A DNA stretch of 64,000 nucleotides from Cyanocohniella sp. LLY. Lineage in GTDB: Bacteria > Cyanobacteriota > Cyanobacteriia > Cyanobacteriales > Nostocaceae. Location of the stretch: contig JAKOMP010000011.1 of NCBI GenBank assembly GCA_022241785.1, forward strand, positions 1-64,000. The letters run 5' to 3'. Under the pieces are notes generated by a model. That model made no database searches. It was given only the letters and a program-made list of their open reading frames with translations, and was not told the DNA's origin. The position numbers and the translations under genes were made by a program. This document shows positions 1,601 through 63,771 of this stretch, in pieces (position 1 is the stretch's first letter; every line of letters begins with the position of its first letter).

Positions 1601-1704
1601 AGAAACCTCCTCGTAACTTTGTCTTGAAAAGTTTACTCAACGGGGAGAACCCCCGCACGTAACTTTTCGCTGCGCTTACCTTAGCGTACCTCTGCGTTCA
1701 AAAA

Positions 1705-2552: not shown

Positions 2553-3072
2553 GGGGGAGGGAGTCGGACATAAGCCGGGTTCTGTTCTTACAGGTATTTT
2601 AAAGTACCTTTAAGGGCAGTTATCTATCTGGGACGCCTGTTACCAGACGCCTCGAGCGGCTCTACTTTTGGAAACTGGTAAAAGACCAACCATAGCTTCC
2701 GTTACCTTGCTCCCAACCGGGGTTTACCGAGCCAGCGCCTCTCGACGCTGCTGGTGCGCTCTTACCGCACCTTTGCACCCTTACCAAAGATTGGGAGTGG
2801 TGAGTGGTGAGTGGTGAGTGGGGTTTTTCTTCCCCTATTCCCCTTCGGGTTCGCCAGTCGCTCATGGGGGAAACCCCCAAGACCGCGCTGGTCTCACCTA
2901 CTCCCTACTCCCTACTCCCAATTCCTGGCGGTATCTTTCTGTGGCACTATCCTCACGATCGCTCGCACTGGACGTTATCCAGCAAGTTTGGTCTTTCGGG
3001 AGCCCGGACTTTCCTCAAACCAATCGTTGTGATTGATCTGCAACCGCCTGCGCCTACTCCCTCCCTAATTCC
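2553..3072 (-). ncRNA. rnpB: RNase P RNA with inserted repeats
   Basis: The minus strand carries the signature ends of cyanobacterial RNase P RNA, the catalytic RNA that trims tRNA 5' ends: GAGGAAAGTCCGGGCTCCC near the 5' end and AACCCGGCTTATGTCCGACT near the 3' end. The P1 helix is visible: GGGAGGGAGT (plus-strand 3056-3065) pairs with ACTCCCTCCC (2555-2564). At roughly 520 bases it is longer than a typical bacterial RNA. The excess lies at about 2795-2925 and consists of two blocks of seven-base repeats around a hairpin repeat. STRRs inside rnpB are an established trait of heterocyst-forming cyanobacteria. The exact ends are approximate. Confidence 0.93.
2797..2925. repeat. STRR blocks and hairpin repeat inside rnpB
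   Basis: Two seven-base tandem arrays sit inside rnpB: GAGTGGT units at about 2797-2820 and CTACTCC units at about 2897-2921. Between them, 2860-2889 holds a compact hairpin (GGGGG-AAA-CCCCC core) flanked by GCTCAT and AAGACCGCGCT. Those flanks recur beside larC at 56931-57005, so this segment is an interspersed repeat that landed in an RNA gene. Confidence 0.85.
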
Positions 3073-13061: not shown

Positions 13062-13308
13062 AACGTGAGTTCGATGAACCTCTCCCCAACCCCTCTCCGA
13101 CGCGGAGAGGGGCAGACATATTTCGCATTTTCAACGAAAAAATAGGCGTTTCAAAGCCTCTAACGCCACTTGCTACAACGCGGCGGCACTTCCTTCAAGT
13201 CGGGCAACCCGCCCAACGGAGTGCCTTGGGAACCCGCGCAACGCAGTGGCTCCTCCTTGCAGGGGAGAGGTTTGGAGAGGGGTTTTTTAGATCCGTCGAA
13301 CTCACGTT
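13062..13308. mobile_element. MITE-like element, copy 1 (with nested insertion)
   Basis: A 247-base non-coding element has terminal inverted repeats AACGTGAGTTCGA / TCGAACTCACGTT and is flanked by a five-base direct repeat AAATC (13057-13061 and 13309-13313), the mark of a transposition event. The interior includes the GC-rich stem CCCTCTCC...GGAGAGGG. A second copy lies at 48910-49063. Relative to it, copy 1 carries about 90 extra bases (about 13162-13251), which are themselves nested hairpins. No transposase is encoded, so it would be moved in trans. Confidence 0.85.
13185..13225. repeat. 41-base hairpin repeat nested in the MITE
   Basis: GGCACT and AGTGCC close a 41-base hairpin that lies inside a larger GCCACT/AGTGGC pair (13165-13250). 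On the minus strand its core (CCGTTGGGCGG, CGACTTG, AGGA) is identical to that of the 41-base hairpin at 56947-56987, while the closing stem differs by paired, compensating changes. Confidence 0.8.
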
Positions 13309-55611: not shown

Positions 55612-56892
55612 ATGATTAAAGTTGCTTATCTCCAATGTCCCACGGGCATTTCTGGCGACATGTGCCTGGGGGCGTTAGTTAGTCTGGGTGTTACCGTAGA
55701 GTATTTAAGTGAAAAACTCAATCAGTTAGGAATTACCCACGAGTACAAGTTAAGGGCCGAACTGGTGCAGCACAATGGTCAACAGGCGACGAAAGTTCAT
55801 GTGGATTTAGTACATGATCATCACCATGACGATCATCAACACAGTCACTACCACGGCCGCCATCTGCCAGAAATAGAAAAAATGATTATCCAAGCCCAGT
55901 TACCATCACGGGCAGAAACTTGGAGTTTGGCTGTATTCCGACAGTTAGCTGTAGCCGAAGGGGCAGTACATGGCATTGAACCAGAGAAAGTACACTTCCA
56001 TGAAGTAGGTGCTGTAGATGCCATTGTGGATATCGTTGGCACTTGTCTGGGGTTGGATTGGTTGGGAATTGATAGTAATGAGCAAGGATTACCCTTACTA
56101 TACTGCTCGGCATTCCCCACAGGTGGCGGAACAGTGCGAGCTGCCCACGGACAAATGGCTGTACCAGTACCAGCAGTTTTGAAGTTATGGGAAATGCGGG
56201 GTTGTCCAGTTTATAGCAATGGTATTGACAGGGAACTAGTGACACCCACAGGTGCAGCCATCGCCACTACCCTGGCTAAAGAATTTGGTTCGCCACCACC
56301 CATGACCATCAAGCAGGTAGGATTGGGCGCAGGGACACTCAATTTACCCATTCCTAATATATTACGCCTGTGGATGGGCGAAAGCACCGAATTACAGTCG
56401 GATTTATCTAATTCTGGCGATACTAGCCCCAATTTAGAAACCATTACCGTATTAGAAACCCAAATTGATGACTTAAATCCCCAGGCGATCGGTTATGTGT
56501 TGGAAGCTTTGTTGGCTGCTGGTGCGTTGGATGTCTTTACTCAACCCATAGGCATGAAAAAGTCTCGTCCGGGGATTTTACTCACTGTTATTTGCTATCC
56601 CCAAAATTTACTCGATTGTGAAGCAATATTATTCCGCGAAACCACAACTTTGGGAATTAGGCGCACTACCCAACAGCGTGCCATCTTACAACGAGAAATT
56701 CAACCAGTAGAAATTGCTTATGGTCAAGTGCGAGTCAAAGTAGCATGGCAAGGACAATCAAACAATAAATGCATTGCTAATGTCCAGCCAGAATATGAAG
56801 ATTGTGCAGAATTAGCTCGTAACCACAATATCCCCTGGCGCGAAGTTCAACGGTTAGCGTTACACAGTTGGTATGTGGCGCATCAACACTAA
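55612..56892 (+). CDS. larC: LarC nickel insertase for the pincer cofactor
   Basis: LarC inserts nickel into the pincer cofactor of lactate racemase and related enzymes. The 426-residue protein shows [21 protein letters not shown] at the start, a His-rich metal-storage loop at about residues 70-85 ([17 protein letters not shown]), [15 protein letters not shown], and [19 protein letters not shown] with [10 protein letters not shown]. These match LarC from lactic acid bacteria, where it is made by ribosomal frameshifting; here it is one frame. No larA or larB gene is near, so the enzyme served is unknown. Confidence 0.93.
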
Positions 56893-56930
56893 GTAGGACG
56901 AAGTAAATAATTAAAGGTTTGTAGTGAGTT

Positions 56931-57005
56931 AGCGCGGTCTTGGGGAGCCAGTCCGTTGGGCGGCTATGCCGACTTGTAGGAACTGGCGTGGTCTCCCCCA
57001 TGAGC
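56931..57005. repeat. Nested hairpin repeat after larC
   Basis: An outer hairpin repeat (AGCGCGGTCTTGGGG ... CCCCCATGAGC) contains an inserted 41-base hairpin (56947-56987) closed by GCCAGT/ACTGGC. The outer part, read on the minus strand, is the repeat found in rnpB at 2860-2889; the inner part is the hairpin found in the MITE at 13185-13225. Confidence 0.85.
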
Positions 57006-57039
57006 CACTAACGTACAGCCTGCGGCATCCGGAGGCATC

Positions 57040-57086
57040 ACTCGAAGAGTGAGGACTTTAGTCCTCAAATAAGGGCTGAAGCCCTT
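57040..57086. repeat. Triple hairpin repeat
   Basis: ACTC-gaa-GAGT (57040-57050), GAGGACT-tt-AGTCCTC (57051-57066) and AAGGGCT-ga-AGCCCTT (57071-57086) are three short hairpins in a row, an interspersed cyanobacterial repeat and probably a termination region for larC. Confidence 0.75.
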
Positions 57087-57162
57087 ACTACGAAATGAAT
57101 TTTAATTATTTTACATTGCTTAACATAGTTTGATTTTTCTCGCCGACTTATTTAATTATTAA

Positions 57163-59671: not shown

Positions 59672-59984
59672 CAAAGTGGAAGAAGCGACAAAAACTCCAC
59701 ACCGTTATTGCCATTTATATGCACTGTTCAAACATCTGCCGTCGCTCTACTTCGATGTCTGATAATGGGCCACTGCGGCAAAACACCCAATCCAGTGCTG
59801 TTTATTGTTATTGACTATAGAATAACTGCTTGCTAACAGTAAAAGCGTCATTCTGGAGTGGTAATTATATTCAGCCTAGGGATCTAATCAGACAACTTAC
59901 TCGTGTATATCAAACAGAGTAGGCATAGTGAGAAAGCTGAGATTTAAAACCTTTGTCATTACCAACCAAATGAGTAAAAATGTC

Positions 59985-63405: not shown

Positions 63406-63771
63406 TGGGGGTGGAGGGACTTGAACCCTCACGACTTTTTACAGTCAACGGATTTTCATTCTCTTGCAGCTTTCACTACTGCCAGGTTTTAATAACCGTC
63501 GGCTTTGAGAATTGGACTCTCCCTTTACCCTCGGCTTAACGTTAGGGTAGCTCCCGTCGAGTCTCTGCACCTTCCCTTAATTTTTAGTTCTGGATCTAGG
63601 ATTGATGAACAATCTCACATCTAAAACTGAAAATTTTTGGGCTTGGCTCAGGATTGCCTTGTCTGTTAACAGATTTAGGTTTCCCTGAGTTTGAGAGCTG
63701 CCACTTGAAAGATTTCTCGATCAAGGCTCAGTTATCTAAGTCCGTAGCGTCTACCATTCCGCCACACCCCC
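63406..63771 (-). tRNA. tRNA-Leu(UAA), interrupted by a group I intron
   Basis: On the minus strand the 5' exon (63738-63771) opens GGGGGTGTGGC and ends CTT, and the 3' exon (63406-63456) opens AAAATCCGT and ends CCTCCACCCCC plus A. Joined, they give an 85-base leucine tRNA with a long variable arm, acceptor pairing GGGGGTG/CACCCCC and anticodon loop CTTAAAA (UAA). The CCA end is not encoded. Confidence 0.95.
63457..63737 (-). other. Group I intron in tRNA-Leu(UAA)
   Basis: This 281-base self-splicing intron sits between U34 and A35 of the anticodon, the classic ancient site shared by cyanobacteria and plastids. It begins AGATAACTGAGCC, ends in G, and contains the core elements AATCCTGAGCCAAGCC (P/Q) and GGTGCAGAGACTCGACGGGA (R/S). 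The 281 bases are longer than the shortest versions and the extra length lies in the P6b stem (TTAGATGTGAGATTG... region). It has no reading frame. Confidence 0.95.

Follow-up and report, generated by a model that had tools for sequence, protein, structure and literature searches.

Related small mobile repeats

The nearest known kind of sequence to the hairpin family considered here is the small dispersed repeat (SDR) of cyanobacteria, beside which the family is placed by description. SDRs have a length of about 21–27 bases and were reportedly presented by Elhai et al. in 2008 as tiny, dispersed sequences of Nostoc-type genomes, thought to be mobile and found nested in other repeats. The present family is likewise small, dispersed, apparently mobile, nested in other repeats and carried by Nostoc-type hosts, but its unit measures 45 bases. 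Single-strand transposition of the IS200/IS605 kind makes no target duplication, uses a short target on one side only and acts on a hairpin substrate; the 45-base unit resembles it in its one-sided target and in the absence of a target duplication wherever the site is unambiguous.

Other described systems share part of this anatomy. REP and REPIN sequences are short mobile hairpins, and compensatory changes in REPIN hairpins are reported in an excerpt of PMC3116915; the present family differs in lacking a GTAG or CGTC tag at its 5' foot, in having one hairpin as its unit and in showing no detected link to Y1 transposases. Rickettsia palindromic elements, which the MITE review PMC10969869 describes as palindromic mobile DNA of about 150 bp lying in frame within genes, share this in-frame presence, whereas the unit described here is 45 bp long, cyanobacterial and mostly outside open reading frames (ORFs). 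Miniature elements of the MITE type, such as the cyanobacterial Nezha, are also non-autonomous and multicopy, but their definition, as worded in an extract of PMC3733652, includes terminal inverted repeats of 15–30 bases, which the single-hairpin unit lacks. According to PMC4390886, SDR5 inserts within the HIP1 sequence GCGATCGC, between nucleotides 3 and 4. The Nostoc trnL intron is covered in a section of PMC4476775, and further related literature includes PMC2884548 and PMC5987646. No cyanobacterial paper is present among the 15 matches listed, of 17, for the core sequence in the literature.

The window, that is, the whole 64,000-nucleotide stretch of Cyanocohniella sp. LLY DNA analysed, contains two copies of the family. 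The family is multicopy, its stems covary, occupied and empty sites differ by 45 bases and there is no general target duplication; its sites include other hairpins, heptamer arrays and, in frame, genes. We consider it likely that the family represents a mobile element that is non-autonomous and very small, has the form 5'-RA-[41-base hairpin]-GY-3' and is moved in trans as a folded strand.

The two hairpins of the window

As the first-pass annotation had proposed, the hairpins at 13185..13225 (minus strand) and 56947..56987 (plus strand) are both exactly 41 bases long and hold CCGTTGGGCGG, CGACTTG and AGGA in common, with closing stems of GGCACT/AGTGCC and GCCAGT/ACTGGC, respectively. The flanks of the two sites, compared by eye, are unrelated. 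In the 13185 copy a 6-bp stem is followed, past a bulged A, by two more pairs, then by an internal loop GTTG/TTGAA, an inner 6-bp stem with one G.A mismatch and a triloop. Its fold is better than that of dinucleotide shuffles (z −3.28; 1 of 200 equally good), as is the fold of the 56947 copy (z −2.60; 4 of 200). With up to one mismatch, CCGTTGGGCGG occurs three times in the window against 0.34 expected, a number reached by one shuffle. A covariance model of the family gives two strong matches in the window, of 61.3 bits for the 13185 copy and 63.5 bits for the 56947 copy, the third best scoring 15.6, and neither site matches any Rfam family at gathering score.

Several other structured sequences were seen in the window. 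The RNase P RNA gene at 2556-3060 (minus strand) carries heptamer-like repeats and a hairpin of the type termed gamma below (2853-2893), which reads GACCAG CGCGGTCTTGGGGGTTTCCCCCATGAGCGA CTGGC with GA on each side, resembling the 45-base family. A related hairpin with a shorter internal loop, AAAAGTTACGTG CGGGG..CCCCG TTGAGTAAACTTTT, lies at about 1627-1667 (minus strand) and is a partial match to the covariance model. Matches to the Group I intron and CyVA-1 RNA families at gathering score are found at 63500-63747 and 59721-59798 (minus strand). A location of the loci L121 and L161 inside a known RNA gene found no support, as six hairpin loci searched against Rfam, these two included, gave no match.

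Copy number and distribution

The genome, 6.78 Mb in size, contains 13 exact copies of the core CCGTTGGGCGG, against 7 for the reversed pattern. The pattern CGTTGSGCGG-N3..25-TTGWAGSAA has 35 occurrences against 0, and GCGTTG-N6..36-TTGWAGCA has 33 against 1. Reading of 33 contexts at these own-genome loci yielded 19 distinct 41-mers, from which a covariance model (R1) was built. This model finds 75 matches in the genome at E<=0.1 and 65 at E<=0.001, including a few partial ones, and seven different places share the top score; both counts may be lower bounds because, of about 2400 first-look candidates, scoring covered 150.

The hairpin is present at E<=0.001 in 23 of 40 relatives, with 0 to 135 matches per genome, and it is concentrated in the host's own family, where 22 of 24 genomes (own included) carry it, as compared to 1 of 16 in the other families of the order. 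A wider contig scan, indicative of spread and not of counts, found at least 116 stretches with the hairpin; the 80 listed are mostly from Nostoc, Calothrix, Scytonema, Brasilonema and comparable cyanobacteria, with a few from Pleurocapsa, Xenococcaceae, Phormidesmis, Hydrocoleum and Waterburya. The hairpin also occurs in six plasmid records.

Conserved fold and covariation

The consensus fold has an outer stem of 6 bp and, beyond a bulged A, two further pairs, an internal GTTG/TTG[AT]A loop, an inner stem of 6 bp and a triloop. The constancy of the loop (GTTG / TTG[AT]AG) is not independent evidence, because the search patterns largely required those bases. The view that both arms change together, drawn originally from the two window copies, is borne out by compensating stem changes that recur across many copies, and the closing pairs also covary among the other genomic copies. 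Among the 19 own-genome sequences, both-side changes occur at 9 of 14 pairs, with a covariation score of 0.427 as compared to 0.141 (sd 0.022) for shuffled and at most 0.081 for slid alignments. A larger alignment (A2: 111 matches from 100 loci, 72 distinct rows) shows both-side changes at 11 of 14 pairs and a score of 0.319, against 0.075 (sd 0.009) for shuffled and at most 0.033 for slid versions; A2 leans towards the model to which it was fitted, and both shuffles leave relatedness in place.

A further 44 loci were searched, giving 52 matches. Among 94 distinct 41-mers, the outer 5-bp stem is perfect in 73, has one mismatch in 16 and more than one in 5, and the perfect stems are of ten kinds. 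When the 3' arms were re-dealt within classes of equal inner stem, a mean of 28.1 and a maximum of 40 perfect stems were obtained in 2000 deals. Covariation extends to the two pairs beyond the bulge, where GC goes with GC, CC with GG and AC with GT. Against the fold, G.A stands at pair 14-26 in 65 of the 94, and T.T or T.C at pair 6-36 in 26. Mismatches of the G.T and A.C kinds (17 and 9, leaving aside pair 14-26) scarcely tell which strand folds. The 94 include L140 (minus strand, coding DNA, core TAGTTG), which is probably a chance match.

Joint change of the two arms could have a source other than selection, as template switching is known to rewrite both arms of a quasi-palindrome at once without it, and quasi-palindrome correction could maintain arm complementarity with no selection on the fold. 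We regard this explanation as highly improbable, because correction would erase the mismatches that instead persist: the G.A at 14-26 recurs in most of the 41-mers and the internal loop remains unequal, although the latter carries less weight with the loop partly fixed by the search.

Boundaries of the unit and target preference

The flanks of the hairpin were compared over 114 flank-distinct contexts, out of 163 found and 160 with enough flank. At the left boundary, 112 contexts have A at position −1 and all 114 have G or A at position −2; at the right, 108 have G at +1 and 89 have T at +2, and the information falls to 0.06 bits at +3. From the conserved −2 to +2 positions and the drop at +3, the unit is therefore taken as 5'-RA-[41]-GY-3', 45 bases in all. 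The window copies correspond to AA-[41]-GC at 13183..13227 (minus strand), which is missing from similar host hairpins elsewhere in the genome, and GA-[41]-GT at 56945..56989 (plus strand), for which copies of the host exist with an uninterrupted hairpin.

Beyond the unit, the target preference is one-sided, being WWGRG-like upstream with almost nothing downstream. The left-hand bases from −7 to −3 (WWGRG) carry 2.55 bits and those from +3 to +7 carry 0.44 bits, with a bootstrap 95% interval for the difference of 1.55–2.71 bits (0.83–2.79 in a stricter set of 39). The commonest words at −4 to −1 are GGGA (34) and AGGA (32), and those at −5 to −3 include GGG (31), GAG (27) and GCG (2 of the 114); the last is what the SDR5-type insertion into HIP1, GCG|ATCGC, would leave, and that pattern is not the one seen here.

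Empty sites and nested hosts

Mobility of the hairpin, as claimed at first pass, is supported on the evolutionary scale by precise empty sites. The 56947 copy splits a hairpin termed gamma (56928..57012, plus strand), which was compared with uninterrupted copies of the form GTTAG CGCGGTCTT GGGGG TTT CCCCC ATGAGCGA CTAAC and is itself related to the 41-base hairpin. Gamma sits within a larger dispersed repeat (56890..57154, plus strand) identified by genome search, where a 701-base query around it returned 69 matching pieces, self included. Other own-genome copies of this repeat carry the hairpin whole, CTTGGG|GGTTTCCCCC, and differ from the occupied copy by 45 bases, with a 1-base shift possible; the window copy has further single-base differences from them (GGTCTCCCCC, GAGCC). 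A second occupied gamma copy, L255, ends in AT instead of GT.

The 13185 copy splits a hairpin of its own family (13165..13250, minus strand), whose letters are GCCACT GCGTTG CGCGGG..CGCG TTGTAGCA AGTGGC, at GGGTTCCC|CGCG. Uninterrupted hosts of this type occur elsewhere, four exactly as expected (L023, L027, L041 and L042) and two with single-base differences (L015 and L040). Both hairpins lie in a repeat at 13062..13308 with 20-base terminal inverted repeats that are 85% complementary.

The short target duplications that the first pass had proposed to look for are absent where the host sequence is unambiguous, as removal of 45 bases restores the gamma host, the nested host and the period-7 arrays, and no duplication of the DDE/MITE kind is found at these sites; at L044, L047 and L056 a 2-base duplication is possible, since two bases repeat at the junction. 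In 18 of the 114 contexts, taking out the element together with some flank bases leaves an array whose period of 7, 8 or 9 is perfect across the junction, as compared to a mean of 1.8 and a maximum of 4 in 30 re-dealings of the flanks. Removal of exactly 2+41+2 bases restores period 7 in 8 of the 114 (uniquely in L112, L154 and L186, and also in L048, L120, L158, L164 and L183), against a mean of 0.13 and a maximum of 1 with re-dealt flanks. Another six periodic contexts need period 8 or 9 to fit 2+2, and four of the 18 (L217, L234, L184 and L198) misfit 2+41+2 at every period tried.

Copy number does not equal insertion number, because many copies ride within larger repeats. The nested form of the 13185 type is found in 9 of the 13 core loci, and these nine probably descend from one nesting event. 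Such an arrangement, together with the dispersed repeat hosting the 56947 copy, would suit passive spread inside larger repeats, the hairpin being kept for an RNA role such as terminator or mRNA stability. We consider this highly improbable, since the 114 flank-distinct contexts share the same RA..GY ends with unlike sequence from +3, the empty sites are exact to 45 bases and in-frame copies occur in unrelated genes.

Further layers were seen at other loci. Gamma hairpins at L250-L254, L260, L263 and L269 contain additional small modules (TACAGCCCTTCGGGCATCCTTCGGCG), themselves split by TCCCAAGGGGAGACGCCAAAGGCGAAC in five of these eight loci. A second small element of about 27–30 bases, ending in GGCTTCTCGCAGAG, lies in the 3' internal loop of the hairpin at L009 and L292, placed after GTAG with TAG on either side.

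Copies within genes

Mechanically called ORFs of at least 100 codons are untouched by 86 of the 114 contexts and touched by 28. The 45 bases amount to 15 codons, so the element can stay in frame within genes. Pfam was run on 10 of the 28 ORF copies, nine of which scored above the curated cut-off, the tenth falling short by 0.2 bits. The families are AAA_22, Uma2 (two, with the unit at the same place), TnpB (three), WD40, AIRS (ThiL-like) and RNase HII, and the reading frame is open through the unit in nine of the ten proteins, those that pass the cut-off. The inserted stretch is by eye longer than 45 bases in both Uma2 copies and in one TnpB copy (L111). In the two Uma2 genes (L066 and L136), which belong to different genomes, the hairpin peptide reads VSQCVARVPRVEATD and its shared place lies upstream of VS[TS]NW.

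Comparison at the level of relatives covers the ThiL-like protein and an ATPase. The hairpin peptide of the former is missing in all eight aligned relatives, whose linkers vary; two of the ten loci were omitted for internal stops. Opposite the own-genome ATPase copy (L044), genus g4 (L332) has a 45-base gap, whose place is uncertain by 2 bases because GA repeats there; the alignment contains an unrelated indel nearby, and another relative (L333) is too diverged for use.

Candidate enzymes and proposed movement

Of the earlier proposal, mobility is supported and the trans-acting enzyme stays putative; the two enzyme groups tested, Y1 transposases and group II maturases, show no link to the hairpin. 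A REP-like element moved by RAYT or another Y1 (HUH) transposase would share with the IS200/IS605 route the lack of target duplication, the one-sided short target and the hairpin substrate. In 45 of the 114 contexts GTAG does lie within the 3' internal loop, as part of TTGTAG, and Nostoc and Anabaena are reported to have GTAG-tagged REPs in a passage of PMC3733652. Despite these points the explanation is unlikely, as GTAG, GGAG and CGTC are found at the 5' foot (−4 to −1) in none of the 114, and GTAG, CGTC or their complements at +1 to +4 in just 7. The genome has one Y1_Tnp gene for its 65 hairpin matches, the counts of the two across 24 genomes are uncorrelated (rho 0.08, p 0.70), and 21 Y1 loci of about 3 kb each gave no match to the hairpin model at E<=1. 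These loci were taken from 529 Y1 matches in 60 genomes, hairpin counts being known for part of these, and a single Y1 subfamily could still act on the hairpin.

Movement through an RNA copy, inserted by a group II intron protein or another reverse transcriptase, would agree with the covarying, RNA-like structure and with the related hairpin in transcribed RNA (the window's RNase P RNA). The link was tested through the group II maturase domain (GIIM), whose counts show a weak positive trend with those of the hairpin that is not significant (rho 0.32, p 0.13). The hairpin-rich genomes G015 (90 hairpins) and G023 (69), and also G014 (12), have no GIIM match, and an exact 45-base insertion with neither tail nor target duplication would be unusual for this route, which makes it quite improbable. 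G039, which belongs to the same order and has a genome of 3.8 Mb, gave 100 GIIM matches, the highest number among the 40 genomes.

Movement by a trans-acting enzyme as a folded strand, the reading favoured here, can be given a provisional mechanism. A putative enzyme would recognise the outer stem with its bulged A, the loop GTTG/TTG[AT]A, the inner stem and the triloop on a folded strand; the element would be moved as a single strand, DNA being likelier than RNA, and joined downstream of a short purine-rich site. We infer the single-strand mechanism from the anatomy, namely a hairpin, no duplication and a one-sided target. On this proposal the stems may drift while pairing is kept because the enzyme reads shape and loop. 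A more specific form, which we hold tentatively, is that the 45-base hairpin may be a complete transposition substrate, with a putative Nostocales enzyme, neither RAYT/Y1 nor group II, reading the shape and conserved loop and pasting the unit 3' of WWGRG with no duplication.

Significance

The family adds 15-residue insertions to genes, and Rickettsia palindromic elements are the best-known source of such protein change. If the complete-substrate proposal is true, the 45-base hairpin would rank with the smallest known mobile DNA units. In this family the unit and the empty sites are defined exactly, the structure has a recognisable signature and the target preference is one-sided, so that the search for the enzyme turns into a direct experiment.
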